From: Rhodococcus rhodochrous
GTDB taxonomy: Bacteria > Actinomycetota > Actinomycetes > Mycobacteriales > Mycobacteriaceae
DNA: 64,000 bases
Direction: 5' to 3'
Assembly (NCBI RefSeq): GCF_014854695.1
Contig: NZ_CP027557.1
Coordinates: forward strand, 4,278,001-4,342,000
In this document: one piece after another, positions 10,768 through 55,651 of the stretch
Numbering within the stretch: the first letter of the stretch is position 1
Layout of the letters: the number at the start of each line of letters is the position of its first letter
Notes under the pieces: generated by a model
Databases searched by the model: none
Told to the model about the DNA's origin: nothing
What the model saw: the letters and a program-made list of their open reading frames with translations, nothing else
Position numbers and translations under genes: made by a program

Positions 10768-10869
10768 AGCCATCCTCCGTTGTTCGGAGGACGAAAACAG
10801 TACGGCTGCAACGGTGCGGTTGCGGCACGTCACCGTCCTTCGTCCGAGGACCAGTACGTACGGACCCTC

Positions 10870-32009: not shown

Positions 32010-32136
32010 TCACGGCGTGTGCTAATTTCGGCACCGTCATTACGACGACGCCAGAGGAAGCCGGTGCGATTCCGGCGCGGTCCCGCCACTGTGACCGGAG
32101 AGCGATCTCCGGGAGCCAGATACTCCCGTCGCCGTA
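32010..32136 (+). promoter_or_regulatory. Cobalamin riboswitch 2 (controls importer 2)
   Basis: The plus strand shows the aptamer core GGAAGCCGGTGCGATTCCGG, then GGTCCCGCCACTGTGACC, and a distal GGGAGCCAGATACTCCC box. The binding-lipoprotein start follows about 45 bases later. Confidence 0.95.
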
Positions 32137-32181
32137 CCTCCTTGCCCGGGGCGGACTTCCCCGAGAGAGGGCGTGATCGCC

Positions 32182-33378
32182 ATGCGTGTACGCGCAGCCT
32201 TCCCGAAGCTCCTGGTCGCGCTGACCTCGGCGAGTCTTCTGCTCGCCGGGTGTTCGACGACCGCATCCGATACCGAGAACGACGCCTCGGACGGGTGTAT
32301 CACCGACTTCGACCCCTCGGTCGACTATTTCCCCGACAAGTCCGAGATCGTCGACGCCGAGAACTTCTCGATCACCTACGAGAAGAGCTACCAGGTTCTC
32401 ACCGTGAACGAACCGTTCTCCGCGGCACCACCGGAGTCGTACGTGCTGGTCAAGTGCGGTGCACCTGCTCCGGAGCTGTCGGGCGAGCTGGCCGCGGCCC
32501 AGCAGATTCAGGTGCCGATCACGAGCTTGTATTCGGGTTCGACCACCCACCTGCCACTGGTGACCGAACTCGATGCGCTCGACGTTCTCAGCGGCGTCTC
32601 GAACGGCTCCTATGTCTCCGACCCCGCCGTGATCGAACGCATCGAATCGGGCGCCGTCGCCGAGTATGCCGCGGGCGGCAACATCGACACCGAAGCCGTG
32701 GTGCTCGCTGCACCCGACGTTCTCATGACCGGCGGCACCGACGATCCCGCCTACGCCCAGCTGCGGGAGGCCGGAATCGGCGTGGTCGCCAATGCCGAGT
32801 GGCTCGAGGCATCTCCGCTGGGACGCGCAGAGTGGATCAAGGTGATGGCCGCGCTGACCGGCAAGGAGAAAGAGGCGGCACAGGTCTACGACGATATCCG
32901 GAACCGTTATCTCGATGTGGCGGCGAAAGCCTCCGACGTGGAACCGGCTCCCGTTCTGCTGGGTGGGATGGCACAGGGCACGTGGTACATGTCCTCCGGC
33001 GGCAGCTTCATGGGCCGGTTGTTCAGCGACGCCGGTGCGCAGTGGCCGTGGCAGGACGTGACCACCGCCGGCTCGCTTCCCCTCGACTTCGAGGCTGTGG
33101 TCGCCGAAGCATCCGATGCGCCGACCTGGCTCGTGGTGAACAACTGGACGTCGATCGGTGACGCACTCGCCGACGACGAACGGTACCGCTCGCTGGCCGC
33201 TGTCGGCACCGGCCGGGTATGGAACGGGAACAAGGCTCTCGGCCCCCACGGGGGCAACGACTTCTACGAGCGGGGCGTCTTGCGACCCGATCTGATCCTC
33301 TCGGACCTCGTGGCAATTCTGCATCCCGACCTGTTGCCCGACCACGAGTTCACGTTCTACCAGCAGCTACCGGCATGA
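32182..33378 (+). CDS. Importer 2 binding lipoprotein (FecB/BtuF class)
   Basis: The 398-residue protein has a signal peptide ending in a lipobox (SLLLAGCSTT) and a periplasmic-binding fold. It is longer at its start than typical BtuF, and two cysteines lie in SDGCITDF and LVKCGAPAP. A GTG at 32173 abuts the ribosome site, so the ATG at 32182 is preferred. The riboswitch in front suggests repression by B12. Cargo could be a corrinoid, a cobalt chelate, or a siderophore-like compound, given the FhuF-like gene in the operon. Confidence 0.82.
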   Translation: MRVRAAFPKLLVALTSASLLLAGCSTTASDTENDASDGCITDFDPSVDYFPDKSEIVDAENFSITYEKSYQVLTVNEPFSAAPPESYVLVKCGAPAPELSGELAAAQQIQVPITSLYSGSTTHLPLVTELDALDVLSGVSNGSYVSDPAVIERIESGAVAEYAAGGNIDTEAVVLAAPDVLMTGGTDDPAYAQLREAGIGVVANAEWLEASPLGRAEWIKVMAALTGKEKEAAQVYDDIRNRYLDVAAKASDVEPAPVLLGGMAQGTWYMSSGGSFMGRLFSDAGAQWPWQDVTTAGSLPLDFEAVVAEASDAPTWLVVNNWTSIGDALADDERYRSLAAVGTGRVWNGNKALGPHGGNDFYERGVLRPDLILSDLVAILHPDLLPDHEFTFYQQLPA

Positions 33379-34478
33379 CCGCCGTGTTCGGGGCGTCCCC
33401 TGCCGCGACCGAGTCCGCGCCCGATTCGCCGCCGGGGACCGGACGGGTCTCGCTCGTGTTCACGGCGCTGATCGTGGGACTGGCGGCGGCAACGATTCTG
33501 TCGGTGACACTGGGTTCGGTGACGGTGCCGCTCGGCGAGACCCTCCGGGTCCTGTTCGGCCAGGAAGCATCGGATCCGCGCTGGAGCATGGTGGTTCGTG
33601 ACCTGCGGCTACCGCGAACGATCACCGCGATCGCGGTCGGGGCGGCGCTGGGGATCGCGGGTCTGCAGATGCAGACGCTGTTCCGGAACGCTCTGGCGGA
33701 CCCGTTCATCCTCGGTGCCAGTTCCGGCGCGAGTCTCGGCGTGGCGATCGTCGTGGTGATCGGCGGCGGCGGAGCGAGTGGCTTCACCGCAGGCCTGGCG
33801 GGTCTCGGGCGTGCGGGTGTGGTGCTCGCCGCGGCGCTGGGGGCGGCTGCGGTTCTCCTGCTGATCGTATTGCTGTCGCGGTGGGTGCGGTCGGCCGTGA
33901 CCCTGTTGCTCATCGGAGTGATGCTCGGATCGGCGACCACAGCCGTCGTCTCGGTACTGCTGGTGTATTCGGACCCGCAGCGCAGCCAGCAGTTCCTGGT
34001 GTGGGGACTCGGGAGCTTCACGGCCACGACGTGGTCGGATCTGAAGTTGCTCGTCCCTGTCGTGCTCGGCGGGATCGCCGTCGCACTGCTCACCGTGCGC
34101 GCGCTCAATGCGCTGCTGCTCGGTGAGGGCTACGCCCGGTCCATGGGCATCGATATTCGCGTCGTCCGCCTCACCACCGTGGTGTCGGCCGCTCTCCTGG
34201 CCGGGGCCACCACCGCGTTCTGCGGCCCGATCGGATTTCTCGGATTGATCGTCCCGCATCTGGCCCGCATGGCCTTCGGCACCTCGGACCATCGCATACT
34301 GCTTCCCGGTGTCGCGTTGCTCGGAGCCGTACTCGCCCTCGTCTGCGGGATCGTGAGCCAGATGCCCAGTACCGACACGGTGTTCCCCCTCAACGCCGTC
34401 ACCGCCATCGTCGGCGCTCCCGTCGTGATCGCCGTTCTCATCCGCAGCCGACGCGGAGCACTGGGAGCAGCACTGTGA
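33375..34478 (+). CDS. Importer 2 permease (FecCD family)
   Basis: The 367-residue membrane protein is a FecCD-type permease with about ten membrane segments. Hallmarks are LRLPRTITAIAVGAALGIAG, LFRNALADPFILGASSGAS and the coupling loop GPIGFLGLIVPHLARM. It overlaps the binding-protein gene by ATGA and the ATPase gene by GTGA. Confidence 0.9.
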   Translation: MTAVFGASPAATESAPDSPPGTGRVSLVFTALIVGLAAATILSVTLGSVTVPLGETLRVLFGQEASDPRWSMVVRDLRLPRTITAIAVGAALGIAGLQMQTLFRNALADPFILGASSGASLGVAIVVVIGGGGASGFTAGLAGLGRAGVVLAAALGAAAVLLLIVLLSRWVRSAVTLLLIGVMLGSATTAVVSVLLVYSDPQRSQQFLVWGLGSFTATTWSDLKLLVPVVLGGIAVALLTVRALNALLLGEGYARSMGIDIRVVRLTTVVSAALLAGATTAFCGPIGFLGLIVPHLARMAFGTSDHRILLPGVALLGAVLALVCGIVSQMPSTDTVFPLNAVTAIVGAPVVIAVLIRSRRGALGAAL

Positions 34479-34523
34479 CCCCGAATAGCACGGGGAGCAG
34501 CACTGTGATCCCGAGTAGCACCG
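34464..34523 (+). repeat. 30-bp tandem duplication carrying a ribosome site and start codon
   Basis: Units 34464-34493 and 34494-34523 match at 27 of 30 positions by my count. Each has GGAGCAG followed by an in-frame GTG (34475 and 34505). The copy adds ten residues to the ATPase N-terminus or offers a second start. Confidence 0.85.
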
Positions 34524-35335
34524 TGACCCCGGGTGTGGAACTGCACGACCTCACGATCGGTTACACCCGGCGTCGGGCACTGCGACGCGGAACGGTCACC
34601 GAGGTGGCGTCCGGTCTCTCGGCAGTGGCCCGACGCGGCGAACTCACCGCCCTCGTCGGGCCGAACGGTGCAGGAAAGTCGACGTTGCTCCGGACGTTGT
34701 GCGGCCTGCAACCGGCGCTGCGCGGTCGGGTGCTCATCGACGGTGAGGACGTGGCGACGGTGAAGCCCGCCGACCTCGCCACCCGCATCTCGGTGGTGCT
34801 CACCGAGCGCATCGACCCCGGCCTGCTCACGGTGCGCGAACTGGTCGCGCTCGGCCGCACACCGCACCTGCCCGCCAGCGCACGGCTGTCGCCCGAAGAT
34901 CTGGCCGCGGTGGACGAGGCGCTCGAGGCGGTCGGCGCGACCCGCCTCGCATCCCGGCAGTTCTCCGAACTGTCCGACGGTCAACGGCAACGTTCTCTCA
35001 CCGCCCGTGCCCTGGCTCAGGATCCGTCGCTGCTCGTCCTGGACGAACCCACCTCCTTCCTCGACGTTCCGTCGCGGGTCGAACTGGTGGACGTCCTCGG
35101 GCGTCTCGCTCGGGAACAGAACTTGGCTGTGGTGATGTCCACGCACGAACTCGAACTCGCCTTGCGCGTAGCCGACAGGATGTGGCTGCTGGGCACCGAC
35201 CGGACCTTGACGTGCGATACGCCGGCGGCGCTGGCCGAGTCCGGACGGATCGGGGCGGCATTCGATCGGGGGCGGATGCGGTTCGATTCGCGCACGATGG
35301 TGTTCGATCTGAAACCGGAGGACAGCAGTGTCTGA
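34475..35335 (+). CDS. Importer 2 ATPase (FecE/BtuD class)
   Basis: The 286-residue ABC ATPase shows Walker A GPNGAGKST, Walker B LLVLDEPTSFLDVPS and the H-loop MSTHELELAL. The signature reads FSELSDGQRQRS, with Asp replacing the second Gly of the usual LSGGQ. The first 20 residues are Ser/Thr/Pro-rich and come from a tandem duplication of the start region, so the true start may be the GTG at 34505. It overlaps the permease by GTGA. Confidence 0.88.
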   Translation: MTPNSTGSSTVIPSSTVTPGVELHDLTIGYTRRRALRRGTVTEVASGLSAVARRGELTALVGPNGAGKSTLLRTLCGLQPALRGRVLIDGEDVATVKPADLATRISVVLTERIDPGLLTVRELVALGRTPHLPASARLSPEDLAAVDEALEAVGATRLASRQFSELSDGQRQRSLTARALAQDPSLLVLDEPTSFLDVPSRVELVDVLGRLAREQNLAVVMSTHELELALRVADRMWLLGTDRTLTCDTPAALAESGRIGAAFDRGRMRFDSRTMVFDLKPEDSSV

Positions 35336-35990
35336 CCCAGCAGTATCCGGCGCGCGCGGGGTGCTCGAGCGAATCACCGCGTGGAGCCCGTACTTCCGTG
35401 TCGGTACCGGACCGGTGGACGCGGGCTGGCGCCCGACCTCCGAACTACGAGATGCCGCGACTCGCGATGCGCTGGTCCGTGCGATGTCGGAACGCATGAA
35501 CACCGCAGAGCCGCGGGTCGCGGCGTCCACCTTGTTCTTCGGTTTCGTCGCGCGACTGTGGTCGGTCGCGGTCGGTACCGTCATCACCTCCGGTCGCTGC
35601 GTTCGGCTCGATCCCGACGAGTTGCTGTGGCGCGACGATTCCGGTCTGCAGTTGCACATCGTCACCCCCGAATTCGGAAGCGACCCTGCAACGGAAGTGC
35701 TCGACACCCAGATCGAACCGCTGATCGACGCGTGGCGTGATCTCGTGGCGCCGGGCGCTCTGTGGGGCAACACCGCCTCCGCACTGATCGGTGCCCGACG
35801 AGTCATCGGCGACGAAGCCCGGCCGCTCGTCGACGCACTGCTGCAGGATCCGCGACTCGTTCACACCATCGACCGATCCACCGGTCGCCGGCGCAGTTGC
35901 TGCTTGTACTACCGGACACCGTCCGGCGGTGTGTGCAGCGACTGCGTCTTCCCCGCGCCACCCCGACACATACCGAAGGAGATTCCGTGA
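35328..35990 (+). CDS. FhuF-like 2Fe-2S protein
   Basis: The 220-residue protein ends with CC-x10-C-x2-C (within RSCCLYYRTPSGGVCSDCVF), the 2Fe-2S signature of the ferric-siderophore reductase FhuF. The rest fits the FhuF layout only loosely. FhuF reduces iron in imported siderophores. Here it lies inside a cobalamin-riboswitch operon, overlapping the ATPase gene by eight bases and the next gene by GTGA. A reductase acting on an imported cobalt complex or on Co(III) corrinoid is a plausible but untested role. Confidence 0.8.
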   Translation: MSDPAVSGARGVLERITAWSPYFRVGTGPVDAGWRPTSELRDAATRDALVRAMSERMNTAEPRVAASTLFFGFVARLWSVAVGTVITSGRCVRLDPDELLWRDDSGLQLHIVTPEFGSDPATEVLDTQIEPLIDAWRDLVAPGALWGNTASALIGARRVIGDEARPLVDALLQDPRLVHTIDRSTGRRRSCCLYYRTPSGGVCSDCVFPAPPRHIPKEIP

Positions 35991-36547
35991 CCGTCGTGTT
36001 CGACCCCGAGATCATCACCACCGAGGACGGTGGGCGTGAACAGCGCTGGCCGTTGCCCACCGACGAGGACAGCCTGCTGCGGCTGGTGACGTTGCTGTTC
36101 GAAAACTACTGGGACGACATGTGGTTCGGCCTGCTCATCGAGGGCTCGGCACTGGAGGTCGCGGCCCCGAACGCGCCGAGGAAGATCGGGATGTACGACG
36201 GGTACGTCACCGTCGATTTCGGCCGGTGGCATTTCCATCTGTGCATCGGCGAACACACCGCGAGCGGCCCCGAAATGGGCCGGATCCGCCGCTGTGGCCG
36301 AGCAGAGCTGTATCGCAGGATCGGCAAGGACGACACCGTCACCTCCTGGGGTCTGCGCATGTTCAACGGGCGGGACGAGCAGATGCTCACGATCATGCTG
36401 CCCACCCCGTTCCTCACCAACGCCCAGCAGCTGACCGATGAACCGGTCTGGGAACACCTCGAGGCGTGGGACCGCATCCGCGCGGAGTTTCTGGGGCTGG
36501 AACCCGATCCGCGGGACCGCACCGGCAAGGGCTTCCGTCACTCGTGA
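35987..36547 (+). CDS. Conserved protein of unknown function at the end of the importer 2 operon
   Basis: The 186-residue soluble protein has highly patterned segments: APNAPRKIGMYDGYVTVDF, the aromatic/His-rich FGRWHFHLCIGEH, and SWGLRMFNGRDEQMLTIMLP. I recall similar uncharacterised proteins in other bacteria but cannot name a function. The His and Cys cluster (HFHLC, GEH) could bind metal. An AGGAG site lies five bases before the GTG, which overlaps the FhuF-like stop. Its place in a riboswitch operon suggests a role in handling the imported cobalt or corrinoid. Confidence 0.78.
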   Translation: MTVVFDPEIITTEDGGREQRWPLPTDEDSLLRLVTLLFENYWDDMWFGLLIEGSALEVAAPNAPRKIGMYDGYVTVDFGRWHFHLCIGEHTASGPEMGRIRRCGRAELYRRIGKDDTVTSWGLRMFNGRDEQMLTIMLPTPFLTNAQQLTDEPVWEHLEAWDRIRAEFLGLEPDPRDRTGKGFRHS

Positions 36548-36568: not shown

Positions 36569-37342
36569 CTACGTGTAGGACGAGGCGCGAATCCGGTGGT
36601 AACGGATGACGGGTGTCCCCCCTTCGTAGGAGACCGCGGCACGCACTCCGTATACCTGTCGGATCATCTGTTCCGTCAGCGCCTCGGCCGGAGCGCCGTG
36701 AGCAACGACCCGCCCCTTCTCGAGCACCACCACTCGATCACAGAACATCGCCGCGAGATTGAGATCGTGCAGCGCGACGTAGGTCGTCACCGGCAACGCT
36801 ACGACCCGTTCGAGGATGTCGAGCTGGTGTTGGATGTCGAGGTGGTTGGTCGGTTCGTCGAGCAACAGTTCTTCGGGTTCCTGCGCCAGAGCTCGGGCGA
36901 TCTGTGCGCGCTGACGTTCACCACCCGACATCGCTCGCCACAACCGGTCGGCGTGTTCGGTCATCCCGGTCACCTCGAGCGCATGTGCGATGGCGGCGTC
37001 TCCCCCGTCGTCGCGCCCGAGGACATCGGCGTGCGGAATTCTTCCCAGCCGCACGACATCCCGTACCCGGATGTCGACCTCGGTGTGTGCGTGCTGCGCG
37101 ACCATTGCGACCCGGCGCGCCAGGACGCGACGTCCGAGGCTGTGGATATCGGTGCCATCGAGCGTCACCGCACCCGAGTCCGGACGATCGACTCCGGCCA
37201 GCAGGCGGAGCAACGACGACTTGCCCGAGCCGTTCGGTCCGAGAAGCCCGATCGTCTCTCCGGGTACAGGATCGATCGTCACGTCGTCGACGACGAGATG
37301 TCCGCCGCGGCTCCACCGCAGCGACTTTGCGGACAGTGTCAC
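36569..37342 (-). CDS. Importer 3 ATPase (FecE/BtuD class)
   Basis: The 257-residue ABC ATPase has Walker A GPNGSGKSS, signature MSGGERQRAQIARALAQ, Walker B LLLDEPTNHLDIQHQ and the H-loop VALHDLNLA. The GTG at 37342 is set by a GAGGAG site six bases upstream, and it overlaps the permease stop by four bases. It is the last gene of importer 3 and ends convergently with the importer 2 operon. Confidence 0.88.
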   Translation of the reverse strand: MTLSAKSLRWSRGGHLVVDDVTIDPVPGETIGLLGPNGSGKSSLLRLLAGVDRPDSGAVTLDGTDIHSLGRRVLARRVAMVAQHAHTEVDIRVRDVVRLGRIPHADVLGRDDGGDAAIAHALEVTGMTEHADRLWRAMSGGERQRAQIARALAQEPEELLLDEPTNHLDIQHQLDILERVVALPVTTYVALHDLNLAAMFCDRVVVLEKGRVVAHGAPAEALTEQMIRQVYGVRAAVSYEGGTPVIRYHRIRASSYT

Positions 37343-38391
37343 GGAGTACTCCTCGTACGGAAGAGGATCAGTGCGAAGGCCGGCACGCCGATCAGTGCGG
37401 TCACCACACCGACGGGAACCTCTTGCGGTGCGAAGACGGTGCGGGCGACCGCATCGACCCACACCATGAAGACCGCCCCGACGACGGCGGTGACCGGGAC
37501 CAGACGGCTGTGGCGTGGACCGACCAGGAAACGGGCCGCATGGGGCAGCACCAGCCCGACGAACCCGATCGCCCCTGCTGCACTGACCAGGACGGCGGTG
37601 ATCAACGCCGTCACCATGAGGAACAGCAGACGGGTACGTCCGACCGCGATCCCGAGGGTCGCGGCGGTCGACGACCCGAATGTGAAGGCGTCCAGCGACG
37701 ACGCCTTCACCAGGCACACCACGATTCCGGCGGCGCAGACCGCTCCGCAGAGCACGACGTCGGTCCAGGTTGCTCCGCTCAGGGAACCGAGTAGCCAGAA
37801 CAACACTCCCCGAGTGCGTTCCGCGTCGGCGGAGGAGATGACGATGAACGATGTCAGCGCCGAGAACAGTTGTGTTCCTGCCACTCCGGCCAGCACCACA
37901 CGGGAGGTCCCGCCCCCTGCCCCGGTCGCCAGCAGCAGCACGAGTGCGAAGGAGACGAGTGCCCCGAGAAAGGCTCCGCCCGACAACGACACGGCACCTC
38001 CGCCGATGCCCAGCACTGCGATCATCACCGCGCCGGTCGAGGCGCCCGAGGAGATGCCGAGCACGAAGGGATCCGCCAACGGATTACGTAACAACGACTG
38101 CATGATCACGCCACACACCGCGAGTCCGGCACCGCACACCGCGGCGAGCAAGGTGCGCGGGAGACGCAGTTCCCACACGATCCCTTCCCGAATCGCGGTG
38201 ACGGAACTGTCGGCCAGGCCGAGACGGTCGAAGATCACCGCGTACACGTCGACGACGGACAACTCCGCCGGGCCGATCGTGACGGTCACGGCGATCGACA
38301 GTGCGAGAACGATCAGCCCCGCGACCACCACGACACCGGCCACCGGAGCCCGGCGCCCCTTCGAGGGTCGCCGGGCAGTGGACGTCACCAT
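37339..38391 (-). CDS. Importer 3 permease (FecCD family)
   Basis: The 350-residue permease has about ten membrane segments and family hallmarks LRLPRTLLAAVCGAGLAVCG, LLRNPLADPFVLGISSGAS and GFVGLVLPHAARFLVGP. Its ATG overlaps the stop of the binding-protein gene by one base (TGATG), so the unit is tightly coupled. Confidence 0.9.
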   Translation of the reverse strand: MVTSTARRPSKGRRAPVAGVVVVAGLIVLALSIAVTVTIGPAELSVVDVYAVIFDRLGLADSSVTAIREGIVWELRLPRTLLAAVCGAGLAVCGVIMQSLLRNPLADPFVLGISSGASTGAVMIAVLGIGGGAVSLSGGAFLGALVSFALVLLLATGAGGGTSRVVLAGVAGTQLFSALTSFIVISSADAERTRGVLFWLLGSLSGATWTDVVLCGAVCAAGIVVCLVKASSLDAFTFGSSTAATLGIAVGRTRLLFLMVTALITAVLVSAAGAIGFVGLVLPHAARFLVGPRHSRLVPVTAVVGAVFMVWVDAVARTVFAPQEVPVGVVTALIGVPAFALILFRTRSTP

Positions 38392-39464
38392 CAGCTGTCG
38401 AGATTCCACTCGCGCAGGGCGTCGGCGACCTTCTCGATGCCGTCGACCGTGCGGATGGACGGATTCAGGTCGGCGCCGTTGACCACGATGTACCGCCGGT
38501 TCTGCACCGCGCTCAGGCGCTGGGTGACCGGATTCGATTCCAGGAACTCGATTTTGCTGTCCAGAGCGTCCCCGGTGACGCTCCGGCGACTCAGGTCGGC
38601 CAGCACGAGTGCGGTCGGGTTGCGGTCGAGAATCGATTCCCAGCTCACCTGGGGCCACTCGTTGGTGGTGTCGTCGAAGACGTTCTTCGCTCCGACCGAA
38701 TCGGTGATGATTCCCGACGACCCGCAGCAACCCGCCACATAGGGTGTCTCGATGTCGGCGAACCAGTAGGCGAGCGACACGCCGGCCGCGTTCACCTGCC
38801 CCGACACGCTTCCGTATCGCTGTTCGAGTTCGGCGACGAACTCCTCACCGCGCTCACGTACGTCGAAGATCGCGGCGAGGTCGCGGATCTCCTTGTACAC
38901 CGCGCCCATGGTCAGCGGTTCGGTGCGGTTGCCGTCGGCGTTGACGCTGTTGTCGTCCTTGCCGTCGCAATCGGTGGGCGAGAGGTAGGCAGGCACCCCG
39001 AGTTGTTCGAACTGTGAAGGTTCGGCAACCCCACCGGCGCCGAGTGTGCCGCCGAAGGACGCCGAGACGAAATCCGGTTCCGTGTCGAGCACGATCTCGA
39101 AGGACGGCTTGTTGTCGGCCAGACGCGGAACCTTCGCGTTCTCGTCGGCGAGGTTCTCCCGAACGGGATCGGTCCAGGTCGCGGTGCCGACCATGCGGTC
39201 GGCGAGACCGAGCGACAGCAGGATCTCGGTGGACCCCTGATTCAGGGACACCGCCCGCTGTGGTGGCGCGTCGACGGTGAGCGTCCTGCCGCAGTTCTCG
39301 ATGGTGAGCGGGTACGCCGACGCGGCTGTGTCCGGCTCGGGCGGAGTCGATTGTTCGTCGTTCGACGAGCATCCCGACACGGTCAGCGCCGCCGCCATCA
39401 ATGCGACGCCGACGCGCACCACCGAATACCGCCTCGTACGGGCGGTGAATATCGAATTGTTCAT
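38391..39464 (-). CDS. Importer 3 binding lipoprotein (FecB class)
   Basis: The 357-residue lipoprotein has a signal peptide ending in LTVSGCSSN and a FecB-like fold beginning IENCGRTLTVDAPPQRAVSL. A Cys-Cys pair lies in VAGCCGSSG. The ATG at 39464 is preferred over one at 39470 because the GAGG site is well spaced only for the former. It lies just downstream of cobalamin riboswitch 3. Cargo is unknown; B12, cobinamide or a cobalt chelate are candidates. Confidence 0.85.
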   Translation of the reverse strand: MNNSIFTARTRRYSVVRVGVALMAAALTVSGCSSNDEQSTPPEPDTAASAYPLTIENCGRTLTVDAPPQRAVSLNQGSTEILLSLGLADRMVGTATWTDPVRENLADENAKVPRLADNKPSFEIVLDTEPDFVSASFGGTLGAGGVAEPSQFEQLGVPAYLSPTDCDGKDDNSVNADGNRTEPLTMGAVYKEIRDLAAIFDVRERGEEFVAELEQRYGSVSGQVNAAGVSLAYWFADIETPYVAGCCGSSGIITDSVGAKNVFDDTTNEWPQVSWESILDRNPTALVLADLSRRSVTGDALDSKIEFLESNPVTQRLSAVQNRRYIVVNGADLNPSIRTVDGIEKVADALREWNLDS

Positions 39465-39489
39465 GTCCATCCTCGTGGGTCCTGCTTCG

Positions 39490-39640
39490 GCGACGCAGGT
39501 GTCCTGGCTCCCGGATCGACGCTCGCCCCCGGCCTTCCAACCCGTATGGGCCGTGACCATGCTGTTGGGGGATCACTCCTCGGTGACAGTTGCGGGACAG
39601 CCACGGATTCGCACCGTTGTTCCCTACGTCGCTACGAACA
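39490..39640 (-). promoter_or_regulatory. Cobalamin riboswitch 3 (controls importer 3)
   Basis: On the minus strand the core reads CGGTGCGAATCCGTGGCTG, then GTCCCGCAACTGTCACCG, with a distal GGGAGCCAGGACACCTGC box. The order and spacing match the cobalamin aptamer, with an extended arm before the distal box. Confidence 0.93.
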
Positions 39641-39753
39641 GTACAAGACCCGACGTCGGTCCCGGAACCGCGCAACCGGGCGTCCGCCACCCATCGACAC
39701 CGGATGAGGCACCATATCCGAATGGCATCCGGCCGAAGAACCCTCGTCGTCGC

Positions 39754-43416: not shown

Positions 43417-44145
43417 ATAGGTGTCCATCACCCAGCCGCGGGCCTGCTTGGCCCGGACACGGGCCTCACGGATCGCGGGAAGCACCTCGGCCAGCTTGCC
43501 CGCGACGAGTTCTTCGTCGTCGGTTCCCAGATTCGCGCCCCACCACATGCTCCATGTCCCGTCGAGGTCGGCGCAGGCAAGGCCGCTGTCGAGCATCACC
43601 ACGATGTTCGACGCACCCGCTGCGACGTCCCGAAGCAACCGACGACCGGTCGTCACGGTGATCGGCCCACCGATGGTGTTGAGCACGAGACGATGTCGGG
43701 CCGCGAGCAGTTGCACGCTGCTGATACCGGGAACGACGTCGTAGTCGAACCACACCCTCCCGCGTTCGAGGATGCGTTCGACGACGCGGATCGTGCTGTC
43801 GTACAGGCTCGGATCCCCCCAGACCAGGAAGCCGACCGTCTCGTCCTCCCGAACCTGTTCGAGCAGAACGGTCTCGTATGCCTCGGCGCGGGCGGCGTGC
43901 CAGTCGCGCACCTCGTCTCCGTAGCGCTCCGGGTTCCGGTCGCGGGGCGGGTCGGGCACCACGACCATCCGATAGGAGCCGGAAGTGTGACGGCGCAGGA
44001 TCTCTTCGCGGACCGCCACGAGATCGTCCACGCCCCGCTTCTTGTCGGGCACGAGGAAGACGTCGACGCTCTCGAGGGCGCGCACCGCCGCCACCGTGAG
44101 ATCGTCCGGTCCCCCGGGGCCGATCCCGATGAGCCGAACCCTCAC
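43399..44145 (-). CDS. cobF: Precorrin-6A synthase (deacetylating)
   Basis: The 248-residue enzyme is CobF, which methylates C1 of the corrin ring and removes the acetyl group in the aerobic B12 pathway. It opens with the tetrapyrrole methylase loop RLIGIGPGGPDDLT and has FLVWGDPSLYDSTIR and DYDVVPGISSVQLLAAR. The GTG overlaps the cobN stop by four bases, so it follows cobN in one transcript. Its presence marks the oxygen-dependent route. Confidence 0.92.
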   Translation of the reverse strand: MRVRLIGIGPGGPDDLTVAAVRALESVDVFLVPDKKRGVDDLVAVREEILRRHTSGSYRMVVVPDPPRDRNPERYGDEVRDWHAARAEAYETVLLEQVREDETVGFLVWGDPSLYDSTIRVVERILERGRVWFDYDVVPGISSVQLLAARHRLVLNTIGGPITVTTGRRLLRDVAAGASNIVVMLDSGLACADLDGTWSMWWGANLGTDDEELVAGKLAEVLPAIREARVRAKQARGWVMDTYLLRRG

Positions 44146-47100
44146 CCCCGGTCCTCGAGATCGCCCTCGACGTCGAGATAGGCCTGCTGCAGTCTGTTCA
44201 TCGTCTCGGGATCCGGTTCGGACCACAGCCCGCGATCGGCCGCCTCGGTGAGCCGTTCGACGATCCCGCGCAGCGCCCACGGATTCGCTTCGCGGAGGAA
44301 CTGCTGGTTCTCCGGGTCGAGCGCATAGTTCTGTGCGAGCGACTCGTACATCCAGTCCTCGACCACACCGGCGGTGGCGTCGTAGCCGAACAGGTAGTCG
44401 ACGGTCGCGGCGAGTTCGAATGCGCCCTTGTAGCCGTGCCGGCGCATCGCACCGATCCACCGCGGGTTGACGACCCGAGCGCGGAAGACCCGTGCGGTCT
44501 CCTCCGCCAGTGAGCGGGTGCGCACCGCATCGGGGGTGGTGGAATCGCCGATGTATGCCTTCGGGTCGGTGCCCGTCAGCGCCCGCACCGTTGCGACCAT
44601 GCCGCCGTGGTACTGGAAGTAGTCGTCGGAGTCGGCGATGTCGTGTTCGCGGGTGTCGGTGTTCTTCGCCGCCACCGCGATCCGTCGATAGTTCGCACGC
44701 ATGTCGTCGGCGGCCGGAACACCGTGCAGCCCACGCCCGTAGGCGAATCCGCCCCAGGCCGTGTAGACCTCGGCAAGATCGGCGTCGGTACGCCAGTTGC
44801 CTGAGTCGATGAGTTGCAGGATGCCGGCACCGTACGAGCCGGGCTTCGATCCGAAGATGCGCCGTACCGCACGGTCGGCGTCGCCGTGTTCGGCTTCGTC
44901 CCGCCGAGCGTGGGCTCGCACGTAGTTCTGCTCGTCGGGTTCGTCGAGGGCGGCGACCATGCGGATCGCGTCGTCGAGCATCCCGATGACGTGTGGGAAC
45001 GCGTCCCGGAAGAAGCCGGAGATCCGGACCGTGACGTCGATGCGGGGCCGGCCGAGTTCCTCGAGCGGGATCACGGTCAGTTCGCGCACCCGACGCGACT
45101 CGGCGTCCCATTCCGGCCGCACACCGATGAGTGCGAGCACTTCGGCGATGTCGTCGCCGGCGGTGCGCATCGCCGAGGTCCCCCACACCGACAGGCCGAC
45201 CGACTGCGGGTACTCCCCCGTGTCGGCGAGATACCGCCCGATCAGATTGTCCGCCAACGCGACACCGGTGTCGTAGGCGAGCCGGCTCGGGACGGCTTTC
45301 GGGTCGACGGTGTAGAAGTTGCGCCCGGTCGGCAGCACGTTGACCAGGCCGCGCAAGGGCGAGCCGGACGGACCGGCCGGGACGTATCCACCATCGAGTG
45401 CGTGCAGCACCGCGTCGAGTTCGGCTCTCGTGCCCGCGAGGCGGGGAACCACTTCGTCGGCAGCGAAGGTGAGCACCCTCGCGACCTCGGAATCAGGATG
45501 GCCGAGCACGGTTTCGACGATGCGTGCAGATGACCCGGCGTTCCAGCCGTCGTCCTCCATGGCCTGCACGAGCGACCGCGCGACGCTCTCGACGGCGTCG
45601 ACCTCCTTCGACGGAGCATCGGACTTCAGCCCGAGTGCGGTGCGCAGACCCGGGACGGCGTTGCTCCTGCCGCCCCACACCTGCGCGGCCCGCAGTATCG
45701 ACAACACGAGATTCACTCGCGCCTCGCCGGTCGGCGCGTCGCCGAGGACGTGCAGGCCGTCGCGGATCTGCGCGTCCTTGACCTCGCACAACCATCCGTC
45801 GACGTGCAACAGGAAGTCGTCGAATTCGGCGTCGTGCGGGCGGTCGTCGAGTCCGAGATCGTGGTCCAGCTTCGCCGCCTGGATGAGCGTCCAGATCTGC
45901 GCCCGGATCGCGGGCAGTTTCGCCGGATCCATCGCGGCGATGTTCGAGTACTCGTCGAGCAGCTGTTCGAGACGAGCGATGTCGCCGTAGGATTCGGCGC
46001 GCGCCATGGGCGGGATGAGGTGGTCGACGATCGTCGCGTGCGCTCGGCGTTTGGCCTGCGCCCCTTCGCCCGGATCGTTGACGAGGAACGGGTAGATCAG
46101 CGGCAGGTTACCGATCGCGGCGTCGGTCGCGCAGGCGGCGGACAGACCCGCGTTCTTGCCCGGCAGCCACTCCATCGACCCGTGTTTGCCGAGATGCACC
46201 ACGGCGTCGGCACCGAAGCCGTGCTCGACCCACTTGTAGGCGGCGAGGTAGTGGTGCGAGGGTGCCATGTCGGGATCGTGGTAGATCGCCACCGGATTCT
46301 CGCCGAATCCGCGGGGCGGCTGGATCATAAGCACCACGTTGCCGGCTTGCAGGGTCGCCAGCACGATGGCGTCACCGTCGACGAACAACCGTCCCGGTGC
46401 CGGTCCCCACGCTTCGATCATGGCGTCGGTGAGCTCGGCCGGTAGACCGTCGGTCCACCGAAGGTAGTCGGAGGTGCTCACCCGCACCGGATTTCCGGCG
46501 AGTTGCTCGGCGGTGAGCCATTCCTCGTCCTGCCCGCCGGCATCGATCAGGGCGTGGATGAGGGCGTTTCCGGCCTCGGTGTCGTCCTCGACGTCCATGC
46601 CGGGGAAGCCGTCTCCCAGGTCGTATCCGGCATCGCGCAGCGCGCGCAGCATCCGGATCGCCGACACCGGCGTGTCGAGGCCGACGGCATTGCCGACACG
46701 GGAATGCTTGGTCGGATAGGCGGACAACATGACTGCGATCCGGCGCTGTGCCGGAGGTACATGCCGTAATCGTGCGTGCGACACCGCGATACCGGCGACA
46801 CGTCGACACCGTTCCGGGTCGGTGACGTAGCGGGGCAGGCCGTCGGCGTCGAGTTCCTTGAACGAGAACGGCACCGTGATGATGCGCCCGTCGAATTCGG
46901 GGACGGCGATCTGCGTGGCCGAATCGAGCGGTGACACACCGTCGTCCGATTCCGCCCAGTCGCCGCGACTCCACGTCAGGCACAGGGCCTGCAGGATCGG
47001 GATGTCGAGCGCGGCGAGCGCTCCGACGTCCCACGCCTCGTCCTCACCTCCCGCGCTCACGGTGGCGGGTCGGGTGCCACCGGCCGCCAGCACCGTCACG

Positions 47101-47741
47101 ACCAGCGCGTCGAGGGTGCCGAGTTCGGCGAGCAGGTCGTCGAGCGCACCGCGCAGCGACGCGCAGTGGATCACGACGCCACGAGCCGTGCCGGTCGCGT
47201 CGATCGCGTCGGCGAGGTCGTGTGCGAACTGGACGTTTCCGCTGGTGTGGTGGGCTCGGTAGAACAACACGCCGACGCGCGGCAACCGCGCGCCGCCGGA
47301 CGATTCGGGACGGTCGAGCACACCCCATTCGGGCAGCTCGGCGGGCGGTTCGAAACCGTCACCACCGAGCAACACGGTGTCGTTCAGAAAGGCGTGGAGC
47401 TGCCCGAGATTGGCCGGGCCGCCGTGTGCGAGATAGCGATGCGCTTCGGCAGCGATGCCGATCGGCACCGTCGAATGCTCCATGAGCTCGGCGTCCGGGG
47501 TCTGTTCGCCGCCGAGGACGATCACCGGGACACCCGCGGCGAGCACGGTGTCGAGCCCCGATCGCCAGCTGCGGGCGGAACCCAGGATCCGCACCACGAC
47601 CAGGTCGGATCCGTCGAGCAGAGCGGGCAGTTCGGTGGACACGTCGAGGCGCGACGGGTTGCCGAGCACCCAGTCGGCACCGCTCGACCGCGCCGACAGC
47701 AGGTCGGTGTCGGACGTCGACAACAAAGTCAGGCGCGTCAC
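44142..47741 (-). CDS. cobN: Cobaltochelatase large subunit
   Basis: The 1199-residue protein is CobN, the magnesium-chelatase-H-like subunit that inserts cobalt into hydrogenobyrinic acid a,c-diamide. Typical parts are AVMLSAYPTKHSRVGNAVGLDTP, given here as part of a conserved block near residue 400, then VHLGKHGSMEWLPGKNAGLS and GGMVATVRALTGTDP. The GTG at 47741 gives a normal family length but lacks a strong ribosome site, and a GTG 21 bases upstream is possible. It lies downstream of riboswitch 4. The ATPase partner is likely the fused AAA/VWA protein at 55652. Confidence 0.94.
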   Translation of the reverse strand: MTRLTLLSTSDTDLLSARSSGADWVLGNPSRLDVSTELPALLDGSDLVVVRILGSARSWRSGLDTVLAAGVPVIVLGGEQTPDAELMEHSTVPIGIAAEAHRYLAHGGPANLGQLHAFLNDTVLLGGDGFEPPAELPEWGVLDRPESSGGARLPRVGVLFYRAHHTSGNVQFAHDLADAIDATGTARGVVIHCASLRGALDDLLAELGTLDALVVTVLAAGGTRPATVSAGGEDEAWDVGALAALDIPILQALCLTWSRGDWAESDDGVSPLDSATQIAVPEFDGRIITVPFSFKELDADGLPRYVTDPERCRRVAGIAVSHARLRHVPPAQRRIAVMLSAYPTKHSRVGNAVGLDTPVSAIRMLRALRDAGYDLGDGFPGMDVEDDTEAGNALIHALIDAGGQDEEWLTAEQLAGNPVRVSTSDYLRWTDGLPAELTDAMIEAWGPAPGRLFVDGDAIVLATLQAGNVVLMIQPPRGFGENPVAIYHDPDMAPSHHYLAAYKWVEHGFGADAVVHLGKHGSMEWLPGKNAGLSAACATDAAIGNLPLIYPFLVNDPGEGAQAKRRAHATIVDHLIPPMARAESYGDIARLEQLLDEYSNIAAMDPAKLPAIRAQIWTLIQAAKLDHDLGLDDRPHDAEFDDFLLHVDGWLCEVKDAQIRDGLHVLGDAPTGEARVNLVLSILRAAQVWGGRSNAVPGLRTALGLKSDAPSKEVDAVESVARSLVQAMEDDGWNAGSSARIVETVLGHPDSEVARVLTFAADEVVPRLAGTRAELDAVLHALDGGYVPAGPSGSPLRGLVNVLPTGRNFYTVDPKAVPSRLAYDTGVALADNLIGRYLADTGEYPQSVGLSVWGTSAMRTAGDDIAEVLALIGVRPEWDAESRRVRELTVIPLEELGRPRIDVTVRISGFFRDAFPHVIGMLDDAIRMVAALDEPDEQNYVRAHARRDEAEHGDADRAVRRIFGSKPGSYGAGILQLIDSGNWRTDADLAEVYTAWGGFAYGRGLHGVPAADDMRANYRRIAVAAKNTDTREHDIADSDDYFQYHGGMVATVRALTGTDPKAYIGDSTTPDAVRTRSLAEETARVFRARVVNPRWIGAMRRHGYKGAFELAATVDYLFGYDATAGVVEDWMYESLAQNYALDPENQQFLREANPWALRGIVERLTEAADRGLWSEPDPETMNRLQQAYLDVEGDLEDRG

Positions 47742-47807
47742 GACGCAACCCGAAAACACAGGCGTACAGCCATGTTCAGTCTCCAAAACCCTCGTGGACC
47801 TCACGTG

Positions 47808-47985
47808 CCGTGGCCGGTCTCCTGGCTGACGGGTCGTCGCTGCTCCGCCGACCTTCCCGGATTCCTCCAGTGGCCTCCGAACCGGCGGACCGGTACGGAC
47901 GAGGGCGAGCAACTATCCGCTCACAGTGGCGAGGGCCGCGCCGGTTTCCCACCGGCTTCCCGAGCACCACGGCAAACCGAGAGTA
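47808..47985 (-). promoter_or_regulatory. Cobalamin riboswitch 4 (controls cobN-cobF)
   Basis: On the minus strand GGGAAGCCGGTGGGAAACCGG is followed by GGCCCTCGCCACTGTGAGCG and, after a longer arm than in the other copies, by GTCAGCCAGGAGACCGGCC. The order of blocks fits the cobalamin aptamer with an expanded peripheral stem. Confidence 0.92.
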
Positions 47986-48005
47986 GCGCACCTGTCCGGA
48001 AAGGT

Positions 48006-49094
48006 GTGCAACCATGTGCGTCCGTGGATGCTCTGCCACCCTCTCGCCCTCCCGATCGGTGCCCCGGAATCCTTCGCCCGCATGTCGCGGCGGACGGCGC
48101 GCTGGTGCGGCTTCGCGTGCCCGGAGGGCAGGTACCCGACGGGGCGCTCCGAGCACTGTCGGACGCGGCCATCGCCTACGCCGATGGCGACGTGCACCTC
48201 ACGTCGCGGGGAAACCTGCAGCTCAGAGGCATCGGACTCGACGAGTGCGGTGCCGTCCCCGCCGGACTGGCCGAAGTCGTCACGGCGGCCGGACTGCTGC
48301 CGTCGGCGAGCCACGAACGGGTGCGGAACATCGTCGCCTCGCCGCTGACGGGACTCGCCGGTGGACTCACCGACGTCCGGCCTCTCGTCCGCGAACTCGA
48401 CGCCGGACTGTGCGCCGATCCGGTCCTCGCCGACCTGCCCGGCCGGTTCCTGTTCGGCCTCGACGACGGCCGTGGCGACATCGCGGCGCTGCGGTGCGAT
48501 CTCACCGCCGTCGCGCTCGACGACGGGACCGCGCGGATCGTCGTGGGTGGACTCGCCGGCCCTACGGTACGGCTCACGCAGGTCCCGGAGACGCTCCTGC
48601 GCCGGGCCCGCCGCTTCGTCGAGATTCGCGAGTCGGTGTGGCACGTGCGTCAACTTCCGCGTGCGGGAGCGGAACTCGGCGGTACCGTTTCCGCTCCGCG
48701 GCCACCGGTCTTCACCATGCCGTACGGCACGATCGGCGACGCGGTGTCGGTGATGGTGCCGCTGGGGATTCTCACCCCCACCATGGTCGCTGCATTGCCC
48801 GATAGCGGTGTGGTCGTCACGCCCTGGCGCGGCCTGATACTTCCGTCCGGATCGAATCTCGTCGCGCTGCGCGAGACCGGTTTCGAGACGATCCCCGATT
48901 CACCGTGGCAGCGGGTGACCGCGTGCACGGGAGCGCCCGGGTGTAGCCTCGCCGGAGGTGACACCCGAGCGCTGGCTCGCCGGATCGTCGCCGGAGATAC
49001 CACCGATTCCCGAATTCACGTCGCCGGATGCGAACGCGCCTGCGGCGCACCGCACTCGCCTCACCGCCTCGTTTTCGCCAGGAGCACCCCGTGA
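48006..49094 (+). CDS. cobG: Precorrin-3B synthase
   Basis: The 362-residue protein is a sulfite-reductase-like oxygenase that makes precorrin-3B. A first half has DVHLTSRGNLQLRGI and a later cluster CTGAPGC with HVAGCERACGAPHSP supplies the four cysteines for the Fe-S centre. It is divergent from cobN, and its leader overlaps the edge of riboswitch 4's region on the other strand. The start is uncertain: the GTG at 48006 has a tight GGAAAGG site, and a GTG at 48024 is an alternative. Its stop overlaps cobH by four bases. Confidence 0.88.
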   Translation: MQPCASVDALPPSRPPDRCPGILRPHVAADGALVRLRVPGGQVPDGALRALSDAAIAYADGDVHLTSRGNLQLRGIGLDECGAVPAGLAEVVTAAGLLPSASHERVRNIVASPLTGLAGGLTDVRPLVRELDAGLCADPVLADLPGRFLFGLDDGRGDIAALRCDLTAVALDDGTARIVVGGLAGPTVRLTQVPETLLRRARRFVEIRESVWHVRQLPRAGAELGGTVSAPRPPVFTMPYGTIGDAVSVMVPLGILTPTMVAALPDSGVVVTPWRGLILPSGSNLVALRETGFETIPDSPWQRVTACTGAPGCSLAGGDTRALARRIVAGDTTDSRIHVAGCERACGAPHSPHRLVFARSTP

Positions 49095-49741
49095 CCCTTC
49101 GACCTCCCCCGCGTCGGTACGACTACGTCACCGACGGCGCCGAGATCTACGTCCGGTCGTTCGCGACGATCCGCGCCGAGTCGGAGCTGTCCGCGATTCC
49201 TGCGAGTGCGGAGAAGGTCGCGGTCCGGATGATCCATGCAAGCGGGCAGACCGATCTGGCACGAGATCTCGTGATCCACTCCGATCTTGTTCCGTCCGCC
49301 CGCACTGCTCTGAACGCAGGTGCTCCGATCCTCACCGACGCGAACATGGTGGCCTCCGGGGTCACCCGTACGCGCCTGCCCGCGGGCAACGACGTGGTGT
49401 GCCTGCTCGCCGACCCACGTGTCCCCGAACTCGCCGAGCGGTGGGGCACGACCCGTTCCGCAGCGGCGGTGTCGTTGTGGGCCGACCGCCTCGAAGGCTC
49501 CGTCGTCGCGATAGGCAATGCCCCGACGGCCCTGTTCCATCTGCTCGAGATGCTCGACGACGGCGCCCCGCGACCGGCCGCGATCGTCGGTGTTCCCGTC
49601 GGGTTCATCGGCGCCGCGGAGTCGAAGGAGGCGCTGCTCGACCATCCGCTGCAGATCCCCCATCTGGTGGTGCGGGGGCGCCGCGGCGGGTCGGCGATGG
49701 CGTCGTCCGCGATCAATGCACTTGCCCAGGAGAAGGAATGA
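49091..49741 (+). CDS. cobH: Precorrin-8X methylmutase
   Basis: The 216-residue enzyme moves the C11 methyl to C12 to form hydrogenobyrinate. The catalytic histidine lies in RMIHASGQTDLA, and DANMVASGV, IGNAPTALFHLLEML and GVPVGFIGAAESKE are typical. The GTG is preceded by AGGAG and overlaps the cobG stop, and the gene overlaps cobIJ by ATGA. Confidence 0.95.
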   Translation: MTLRPPPRRYDYVTDGAEIYVRSFATIRAESELSAIPASAEKVAVRMIHASGQTDLARDLVIHSDLVPSARTALNAGAPILTDANMVASGVTRTRLPAGNDVVCLLADPRVPELAERWGTTRSAAAVSLWADRLEGSVVAIGNAPTALFHLLEMLDDGAPRPAAIVGVPVGFIGAAESKEALLDHPLQIPHLVVRGRRGGSAMASSAINALAQEKE

Positions 49742-51309
49742 GCGACACGATGCCAGGCAGGTTCTACGGCGTGGGCCTCGGTCCCGGTGATCCCGAACTC
49801 ATCACACGCAAGGCCGCGCGGCTGATCGCCGAGGCCGACGTGCTCGCCTACTATTCCGGCACGCACGGCCGCTCCATCGCCCGGTCGATCGCCGCCGACC
49901 TGATCCCGGACGGGGTGATCGAGGAACTGCTCGTGTACCCGGTGACGACGGGCACCACCGATCACCCGGGCGGCTACGACGGTGCGATCGCCGATTTCTA
50001 CGACGAGTCCGCCGCCCGGCTCGCCGTCCACCTCGACGCGGGACGCACCGTCGTCGTGCTCTGCGAAGGCGACCCCCTGTTCTACGGCTCGTACATGTAC
50101 CTGCACGACCGCCTCGCTCCGCGATACCCGACGGAAGTGGTGCCGGGGGTGACGTCGGTGTCCGCCGCATCTGCTGCGGCCGCCGAACCGATGGTGCGCC
50201 GCACCGATGTCCTCACCATCCTGCCCGGCACGTTGCCCGCCCCGGAACTCGCACGGCGGCTCGCCGACACCGACGGCGCGGCGATCATGAAGCTGGGCAG
50301 GACGTTTCCCGCCGTCCGGGAAGCTCTCGCCCAGTCCGGTCGCCTCGACGACGCCGTCTATGTCGAACGCGCGTCGATGGATCGGCAACGCATCCTGCCG
50401 GTCACCGAGGTCGACGCCGACGCGGTGCCGTACTTCTCGGTGATCCTCACGGCCGGTGACCGCTCGCCGAGGAATCGCGCCGTCGCCGACCGATCACGGC
50501 CCTCCGTAGCGGCCGAGGTGACACATCCGGAGGCGAACGAACTGTTCGTCGTCGGGTTGGGTCCCGCGGACGAGAAGTGGCTGACCGCCGAGGCCGCCGA
50601 CGCACTCGCGAAGGTCGATCACGTCGTCGGATACGGACCGTATGTCGATCGCGTCCCGGTACGTCCCGGCCTGCACCGTCATTCGAGTGGCAACACCGTC
50701 GAGGTCGACCGCGCGCGATTCGCTCTCGACCTCGCGCTGTCGGGCGAGAAGGTCGCGGTGGTCTCCGGTGGCGACGCCGGGGTGTTCGGGATGGCGTCCG
50801 CGGTGTTCGAGGCCGCCCAGGACGACACCTACGCGTCGGTGCCGATCCGCGTCCTGCCGGGCGTCTCCGCGGTGCAGGCCGTCGCGGCGCGTGCCGGCGC
50901 CCCGATCGGCGGCGACTTCGCGGTGATGAGCCTGTCCGATCGCCTCAAGCCGTGGGACGTGATCGAGAAGCGGTTGGCCGCGGTGTCCGAGGCCGATCTC
51001 GTCCTGGGCATCTACAACCCGGCGTCGCGGTCTCGGACGACGCAGGTCGCGGATGCGAAAACTGTTCTGCTGAGGCATCGTCCGGCCGACACCGTCGTCG
51101 TGATCGGGCGCGATGTGGGACGGTCCGGTGAGTCGCTCGAGGTCACGACGCTCGAGAAGCTGGATCCGGCGGGTATCGACATGAAGTGCCTGCTCATCGT
51201 CGGTGCTGCGGGTACCTCCGTGACACCGACCGGTGCGGTGTGGACGAAACGATCGGTGGACGGTCAGAGTTCGGGATCGTCGACGACCGACTGGACGAGC
51301 CGGCCGTAG
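49738..51309 (+). CDS. cobIJ: Fused precorrin-2 C20- and precorrin-3B C17-methyltransferase
   Basis: The 523-residue protein joins two tetrapyrrole methylases. Residues to about 250 are CobI (FYGVGLGPGDPELITRKA; CEGDPLFYGSYMYLHDR). Residues from about 260 are CobJ (ELFVVGLGPADEKWLT; VVSGGDAGVFGMASAV; GIYNPASRSRTTQ). They add methyl groups at C20 and C17. The same CobI-CobJ fusion is known in mycobacteria. The 3' end overlaps the convergent TetR gene by 46 bases. Confidence 0.95.
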   Translation: MSDTMPGRFYGVGLGPGDPELITRKAARLIAEADVLAYYSGTHGRSIARSIAADLIPDGVIEELLVYPVTTGTTDHPGGYDGAIADFYDESAARLAVHLDAGRTVVVLCEGDPLFYGSYMYLHDRLAPRYPTEVVPGVTSVSAASAAAAEPMVRRTDVLTILPGTLPAPELARRLADTDGAAIMKLGRTFPAVREALAQSGRLDDAVYVERASMDRQRILPVTEVDADAVPYFSVILTAGDRSPRNRAVADRSRPSVAAEVTHPEANELFVVGLGPADEKWLTAEAADALAKVDHVVGYGPYVDRVPVRPGLHRHSSGNTVEVDRARFALDLALSGEKVAVVSGGDAGVFGMASAVFEAAQDDTYASVPIRVLPGVSAVQAVAARAGAPIGGDFAVMSLSDRLKPWDVIEKRLAAVSEADLVLGIYNPASRSRTTQVADAKTVLLRHRPADTVVVIGRDVGRSGESLEVTTLEKLDPAGIDMKCLLIVGAAGTSVTPTGAVWTKRSVDGQSSGSSTTDWTSRP

Positions 51310-51812
51310 GTCTCGATCAGGGTCTCGCCGGGCATCTCGTCGGGCGACAGCAACTCGAACGTCCTCAGGCTGCCCGCCAGTCCCAGCAGGAGGGTGACGA
51401 CCATCTGCGAGCGCACCAGCCCCGCGGATTCGTCCCCGATCAGTGCCGCGATCCGGGCGACGACCCGCTCGTTCGTCCGCGCGCGGACCACAGCAGGATC
51501 CGCTGCCTCACGGATCAGGAAGGGTGCCATCGCCCAGAAGTCGTAATCGTCCGAATCCCGTCGTTCGACGACCGCACGCACCATCCGGTACCCGACCGGC
51601 TCGTCGTGACGGGTGGCCTCGGCGAGTCCGGGCGAGTCCGGGGCGGCCGCCTGGAAGAGTTCGGCCTTGCTGCCGGTCAGTTTCATCACGAGAGCCGGTG
51701 AGACACCGGCCGCTTCGGCGACGTCCCTGATCGTGGTGCCGTTGAAGCCGCGCTCGGCGAACAGCGGCCGTGCGGCGTCGAGGATGACGTCGCGGGTGGT
51801 TCGCTCGGTCAC
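51264..51812 (-). CDS. TetR-family repressor of the adjacent efflux gene
   Basis: The 182-residue protein has an N-terminal TetR helix-turn-helix (TTRDVILDAARPLFAERGF, then TIRDVAEAAGVSPALVMKLTGSKAEL) and a ligand domain. It begins immediately after the MFS stop with no gap, so both are in one operon. Two palindromic sites in front of the MFS gene are probable targets, giving autoregulation. Its end overlaps cobIJ. Confidence 0.9.
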   Translation of the reverse strand: MTERTTRDVILDAARPLFAERGFNGTTIRDVAEAAGVSPALVMKLTGSKAELFQAAAPDSPGLAEATRHDEPVGYRMVRAVVERRDSDDYDFWAMAPFLIREAADPAVVRARTNERVVARIAALIGDESAGLVRSQMVVTLLLGLAGSLRTFELLSPDEMPGETLIETYGRLVQSVVDDPEL

Positions 51813-53243: not shown

Positions 53244-53268
53244 GTCCCCATCTCCGTTGCCACCCTGC

Positions 53269-53311
53269 GGGGTGAACACCGTTCACCCCGCATCGAGTGA
53301 ACGGCGTTCAC
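53269..53311. promoter_or_regulatory. Two tandem TetR-type operators
   Basis: GTGAACACCGTTCAC (53272-53286, inside a longer 21-base palindrome 53269-53289) and GTGAACGGCGTTCAC (53297-53311) share the half-site GTGAAC-n3-GTTCAC. Their centres are 25 bases apart, and the first begins 28 bases before the MFS start codon. Confidence 0.8.
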
Positions 53312-53335
53312 CCCCGGGTTGTCAACAGGTTCGCG

Positions 53336-53387
53336 CGCCGTACCGGGGTTCGCCCCTGCTGCAACCGGGGCGAATCCCGGTACGGCG
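53336..53387 (-). terminator. Terminator after cobM
   Basis: Two 21-base arms (53336-53356 and 53367-53387) pair with one mismatch around a 10-base loop. It starts 13 bases after the cobM stop and separates the cobL-cobM unit from the efflux promoter. Confidence 0.75.
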
Positions 53388-53400
53388 GGCGAAGATGGAG

Positions 53401-55379: not shown

Positions 55380-55431
55380 GGCGGTGAACCATAGCCCACG
55401 CGCCATGGCCTAGACTCGGCCGCGGCAAGGC

Positions 55432-55602
55432 AATCGAAGGTGCCCCTCACGGGGATAATCGGGAAGCCGGTGAGAATCCGGCACAGGCCCGCTGCGGTGA
55501 CCCGGGAGTCGTCGATCATGCGCACCCGCGCAGCCACTGGACCGTCCGGTCCGGGAAGGCGATCGCACGGCGTCCGACCGGGAAGTCCGAATACCGGCCT
55601 TC
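55432..55602 (+). promoter_or_regulatory. Cobalamin riboswitch 5 (controls chelatase-cobO-cobBC-cobD)
   Basis: On the plus strand GGGAAGCCGGTGAGAATCCGG is followed by GGCCCGCTGCGGTGACCCGG, a separate GCCACTGGACCG block, and the distal GGGAAGTCCGAATACCGGCC. The peripheral arm is longer than in riboswitches 1 and 2. The chelatase start lies about 50 bases downstream. Confidence 0.9.
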
Positions 55603-55651
55603 GAACAGCTTGCCGCGAAGAACATCCCAGCGGGAGCCTGTGGAGGTCGAA

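Follow-up and report, generated by a model that had tools for sequence, protein, structure and literature searches.

Operon Layout and Riboswitch Control

This report describes an operon in Rhodococcus rhodochrous that is headed by a cobalamin riboswitch and ends with genes for a FhuF-like protein and a protein of the family DUF7676. It lies in a stretch of 64,000 nucleotides (contig NZ_CP027557.1 of assembly GCF_014854695.1, positions 4,278,001 to 4,342,000 of the forward strand), here called the window, to which coordinates refer unless a locus is named. The elements of the operon are as follows.

32021..32141, plus strand: cobalamin riboswitch aptamer, short variant (RF00174; cmscan 42.7 bits against a gathering score of 31.5; E 2e-7, a whole-window value)
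32173..33378 (or from an ATG start at 32182), plus strand: FecB/BtuF-type substrate-binding lipoprotein (PF01497, E 1.4e-22; lipobox LLAGC)
33375..34478, plus strand: FecCD/BtuC-type permease (PF01032, E 2.9e-76)
34475..35335, plus strand: ATP-binding cassette (ABC) ATPase of the importer (PF00005, E 1.7e-28)
35328..35990, plus strand: FhuF-like protein with a putative 2Fe-2S cluster (PF11575 FhuF_C, 33.4 bits against a cut-off of 20.5)
35987..36547, plus strand: DUF7676 protein with a predicted HemS/ChuX/HutX-like fold (PF24724, E 3.1e-68)

A first-pass annotation of the window had described a cobalamin riboswitch leading a FecBCD-type importer and two further genes, all overlapping start to stop. 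Each of these features was recovered: the riboswitch scores above the RF00174 gathering threshold, all three importer components match their Pfam models, and the genes overlap at all four junctions within 32173-36547. Overlap at every junction makes a single transcript likely. The riboswitch, although a short variant, still has the conserved core in alignment, and in close relatives a riboswitch stands at the same place at the head of the operon. As judged from this sequence, the operon appears to be turned off by vitamin B12. Its riboswitch control ties the operon to the B12/cobalt economy.

The importer shows the three Pfam components of BtuFCD together with control by B12. As in BtuFCD/BtuB, a cobalamin riboswitch stands ahead of a class II ABC importer, and two Gram-negative loci have a BtuB-like receptor; unlike BtuFCD/BtuB, the window operon adds the FhuF-like protein and DUF7676, and none of the transport proteins tested reaches a B12 equivalog cut-off. 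A comparison of the binding lipoprotein with PDB sequences gave no match at E <= 0.01. Among the genomes of 61 relatives, a relative of the FecB protein was found in 11 and DUF7676 was present in all 11; one further genome, that of the degraded locus L020, has DUF7676 only.

The FhuF-Like Protein and DUF7676

The FhuF-like protein has the FhuF fold and carries the CC-x10-C-x2-C motif noted in the first pass, CCLYYRTPSGGVCSDC, at residues 191-206 (C191, C192, C203 and C206). The pattern CC-x(10-13)-C-x2-C is kept in all 43 FhuF-like sequences examined. The ferric siderophore reductase FhuF of E. coli (PDB 7qp5) is among the closest known systems. PF06276 scored below its cut-off on the same protein (13.5 against 25.2).

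The last protein of the operon had been called unknown, which holds for its function; its family is named in Pfam as DUF7676. The motif described for it, FGRWHFHLCIGEH, was found as stated, and His82-x-His84-x-Cys86 is invariant in the 23 copies on which this count rests. The broken copies in L044 (G001) and L043 (G002) were left out of this count, though counted as loci, and HFHLC is readable in one piece of each. The counterpart of the last protein in R. gordoniae is 93% identical.

A fold of the HemS/ChuX/HutX superfamily is predicted for DUF7676. When Pfam models, including heme-carrier models such as PF06228, were searched with HMMER, only DUF7676 itself was reported at E <= 1; no PDB sequence matched at E <= 10 and no NCBIfam model at E <= 1. 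Profile-profile comparison with heme carriers gave a weak score that nonetheless exceeded 200 shuffles. Compared with the cytoplasmic heme carriers and degraders ChuX, HutX, HemS and PhuS, DUF7676 has no HMMER-level sequence match, it has an invariant Cys two residues after HxH, and its loci have a cobalamin riboswitch and, in some, corrinoid gene neighbours. The heme ligands of ChuX are reportedly His65 and His98.

Distribution and Association With Cobalamin Riboswitches

DUF7676 was collected from 25 loci in 24 genomes, 17 of them actinobacterial (the window, L015-L024 and L040-L045) and eight proteobacterial (L025-L028 and L036-L039). The first-pass annotation had proposed to count how often its homologs lie downstream of cobalamin riboswitches. 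One is found upstream on the same strand in 22 of the 25 loci (15/17 actinobacterial, 7/8 proteobacterial). In 16 DUF7676 genomes, between 1 and 8 riboswitch matches were counted in each; at this density the chance of one within 5 kb of a locus on the right strand is about 0.2%, an estimate that ignores riboswitch clustering near cob genes and the kinship of the loci. The loci are not independent, because Rhodococcus contributes at least half of the actinobacterial set. The association is more than chance, given its recurrence in other genera and the count of 22 in 25. It spans two phyla, and the view of DUF7676 as a Rhodococcus oddity was rejected on that account. The family is rare, with 2 of 396 genomes in the phylum of the window, 3 of 299 in the Parazoarcus phylum and 2 of 250 in the Parazoarcus order (query genomes included).

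Riboswitch detection by regular expression missed 17 of 43 known cases, and a DNA profile was used instead. Every Rfam cobalamin match in the window, L015-L028 and L036-L045 was recovered by the profile, but since most of its 18 training cores come from these loci, the recovery is no held-out test. Four weak profile matches (L025 minus strand, L026, L027 and L028) scored 13.7-17.9 bits against a best of 10.2 in shuffled DNA.

Fifteen of the 17 actinobacterial loci carry the FhuF-like gene. L020, from R. phenolicus, has only the first part of it, and no binding protein or permease was found there. Importer gene fragments remain in L043, where the DUF7676 match is in two pieces, and in L044 DUF7676 is split over two reading frames. 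No paper naming DUF7676 turned up in the open-licence literature, which is weak evidence given its partial coverage. One paper there contained both "cobalamin riboswitch" and FhuF, and its FhuF passage was about cobalt and iron-sulfur proteins.

Some proteobacterial loci have CbiZ, cob genes or a BtuB-like receptor next to DUF7676. L025 and L027 run from riboswitch through TonB receptor, DUF7676 and binding protein to permease and ATPase. L028 has the same receptor, permease and ATPase, and L026 has a receptor-sized open reading frame (ORF) in the receptor position, a permease and an ATPase that runs off the end of the stretch; in both, the genes directly 3' of DUF7676 lay outside the profile searches. 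On the opposite strand of L025, a riboswitch precedes a cobO-like ORF (recognized by eye), CobW and CobN. L036 is ordered riboswitch, TonB receptor, DUF7676 and binding protein, and on its other side a divergent riboswitch precedes a CbiM cobalt transporter and a tetrapyrrole methylase. The receptors of L025 and L036 fit the B12 (BtuB) model best, both under its cut-off. In L037 and L038, from one genome, the riboswitch is followed by a siderophore-type receptor, DUF7676, a membrane protein without a family and CbiZ. CbiZ works in corrinoid salvage, and the context of these two loci therefore speaks for a corrinoid rather than bare cobalt.

The membrane protein between DUF7676 and CbiZ (L037:7117-7671 and L038:6779-7393, 184-204 residues) is a candidate corrinoid permease. 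The 184-residue protein of L037 had no match in Pfam (E 0.01) or NCBIfam (E 0.001) and no meaningful one in PDB; it was suspected to be BtuM, which could not be shown.

FhuF-Like Genes Outside DUF7676 Loci

FhuF-like matches without DUF7676 were examined in 31 loci, namely the best-scoring 15 of the 33 rows of one search and 16 of the 25 of another. In six of these, a riboswitch heads the gene set that includes the FhuF-like gene. Three (L087, L088 and L090) have CbtB, CbtA and FhuF under the riboswitch; Pfam identified CbtA in each of them and CbtB in L090, tblastn recognized CbtB in L087 and L088, and the riboswitches come from Rfam, that of L087 barely above threshold. In L158 and L159 the riboswitch is followed by binding protein, permease, ATPase and FhuF, and in L156 by FhuF directly; the riboswitches of these three rest on the DNA profile, not on Rfam. 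Another three loci (L078, L160 and L161) have a riboswitch nearby in a different arrangement, and in L160 the FhuF-like gene is closely followed by a riboswitch-like site and a cobN-like gene. At least three types of B12-controlled import operon include the FhuF-like protein, although more of the copies examined lie outside such operons.

Proposed Function and Alternative Explanations

The first-pass annotation had proposed import of a cobalt complex or corrinoid and its reduction inside the cell, with the last protein as the binding partner. The link to B12 or cobalt, the FhuF-fold protein and a last protein with a predicted tetrapyrrole (heme) carrier fold have held up; the rest stands as a proposal. 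On balance, it is somewhat likely that the operon imports and processes cobalt corrinoids (B12, cobinamide and related incomplete corrinoids), with reduction and hand-over. It would be made when intracellular cobalamin is low, and its importer would deliver a Co(III) corrinoid to the cytoplasm. The FhuF-like protein would reduce Co(III) to Co(II) and loosen the upper ligand (cyanide, water or alkyl), like FhuF acting on ferric siderophores. DUF7676 would bind the corrinoid, probably via its His-x-His-x-Cys motif, and pass it on, either to the adenosyltransferase or to enzymes of assembly, much as heme is handled by ChuX, HutX and PhuS. More tentatively, and with rather less than even confidence, DUF7676 may be a new corrinoid-carrying branch of the heme-carrier superfamily that forms, with the FhuF-like protein, a dedicated cytoplasmic reduction and delivery pathway for imported Co(III) corrinoids.

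Such a pathway would parallel, for cobalt, the release of iron from siderophores and the trafficking of heme, and the heme-carrier fold would serve another tetrapyrrole. How bacteria strip the upper ligand from imported corrinoids and reduce them is an unsettled question; the decyanation step in M. tuberculosis is called unconfirmed in a 2025 review (PMC12713380). B12-repressed FhuF-like and heme-carrier-like proteins in importer operons offer two concrete, testable candidates. BtuM, which decyanates B12 through a cysteine (PMC6072759), likewise couples corrinoid uptake to upper-ligand removal, and the Cys of DUF7676 is a possible cobalt ligand. BtuM is a membrane protein; the model of DUF7676 shows no membrane segment, and its predicted fold is a different one.

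Several observations weigh against a corrinoid pathway of this kind. Work on M. smegmatis published in 2021 argues that dedicated enzymes may not be required for decyanation and reduction (PMC8088520). No NCBIfam B12-transport equivalog cut-off was reached by any transport protein tested; BtuC is the best model for the permease, at 187.4 bits under a cut-off of 334. G026 has a second, more distant FecBCD set (L162:5150-8135, 44-56% identical) without riboswitch, FhuF or DUF7676. The profile-profile comparison was weaker for ChuX-type subsets (P 0.0077 with a set of nine ChuX-like domains that includes one of a different type) and for three HemS C-terminal domains (P 0.34), and the probability given by HHalign itself for the full set was 20%; a common fold is no proof of a common ligand. 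No upstream riboswitch was detected in L020 (a degraded locus), L024 or L039 even at E <= 1, and L039 has neither importer nor receptor beside DUF7676 and no CobN match in its genome. By tblastn, the FhuF-like gene was found neither in L024 nor in any of the eight proteobacterial loci, and DUF7676 in Gram-negative bacteria may therefore use other electron donors or act purely as a carrier. Finally, 22 of the 31 FhuF-like loci without DUF7676 show no riboswitch nearby (L083 is included, its site being flagged by regular expression and unsupported by the profile). Searched by tblastn with importer, CbtBA and cob queries, two of these 22 were matched, L077 and L086, the only ones with an importer gene match (at the stretch edge in L077); siderophore genes and iron boxes were not searched there. 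The first-pass annotation had held that homologs lying mostly in iron-regulated siderophore loci without riboswitches would speak against it: the DUF7676 loci contradict that outcome, and the FhuF-like loci divide as just given.

The cargo might instead be cobalt itself. A Co(III) chelate (a cobaltophore or scavenged siderophore) would be imported, the FhuF-like protein would make labile Co(II), and the HxHxC motif of DUF7676 would hand it to the cobaltochelatase CobN. In three loci the FhuF-like gene adjoins the gene for CbtA, which is predicted to be a subunit of a cobalt transporter, and in L160 it neighbours a cobN-like gene; CobN was found in 15 of 16 DUF7676 genomes, and the receptors of L037 and L038 fit siderophore receptors of the FhuA type. 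CbtBA and cobN point to cobalt; the predicted heme-carrier fold, CbiZ beside DUF7676 in L037 and L038 and the BtuB-like receptors of L025 and L036 point to corrinoid. Import of a cobalt chelate is rather unlikely. Heme or another metalloporphyrin, with the B12 riboswitch coordinating tetrapyrrole acquisition, is less likely still. This would suit the predicted HemS/ChuX fold, the receptors of L027 and L028, which fit a heme-receptor model better than the B12 model, and the binding protein of L025, whose nearest PDB relative is HmuT, with BtuF weaker. The prevalence of cobalamin riboswitches at DUF7676 loci and the presence of cob, cbi and CbiZ genes nearby in L025 and L036-L038 argue against it, as does the aligned ChuX motif, which lacks the invariant Cys of HxHxC. 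A further point against it is that G492 has separate ChuX_HutX domains elsewhere; this is one of 11 DUF7676 genomes among 18 searched, and in the other 10 there are none.

A siderophore-iron system in which the riboswitch is incidental and FhuF acts on iron is the least probable alternative and very unlikely. The family names FecBCD and FhuF and the absence of a nearby riboswitch from most of the FhuF-like relatives examined speak for it. A plain siderophore system was nevertheless rejected: the NCBIfam siderophore-iron reductase equivalog TIGR03951 gave 19.9 bits, far below its cut-off of 63.85, and the riboswitch is conserved at the operon head in relatives, though no scan of the window for siderophore genes or iron boxes was made.

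Neighbouring B12 Genes in the Window

A second importer lies convergent with the operon on the minus strand (36569-39673), with a binding protein, permease and ATPase that are EitABC- or "F420-0"-like and with its own cobalamin riboswitch (39477-39673). EitABC-type importers in L158 and L159 carry the FhuF-like gene, which therefore goes with more than one neighbouring importer type. At 6643-10970, a riboswitch (10855-10970, minus strand) precedes a binding protein and a BtuC-like permease; further down, a 448-residue ORF has CobU as its C-terminal part and a metallo-hydrolase-like N-terminal part (recognized by eye), and is perhaps a fusion. Cobalamin biosynthesis genes for CobN, a cobaltochelatase subunit, CobO and CobD/CbiB occupy 44142-61435, with one riboswitch at CobN (47795-47986) and one listed with CobD/CbiB (55421-55616). 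The window holds five of the seven cobalamin riboswitches of the genome.
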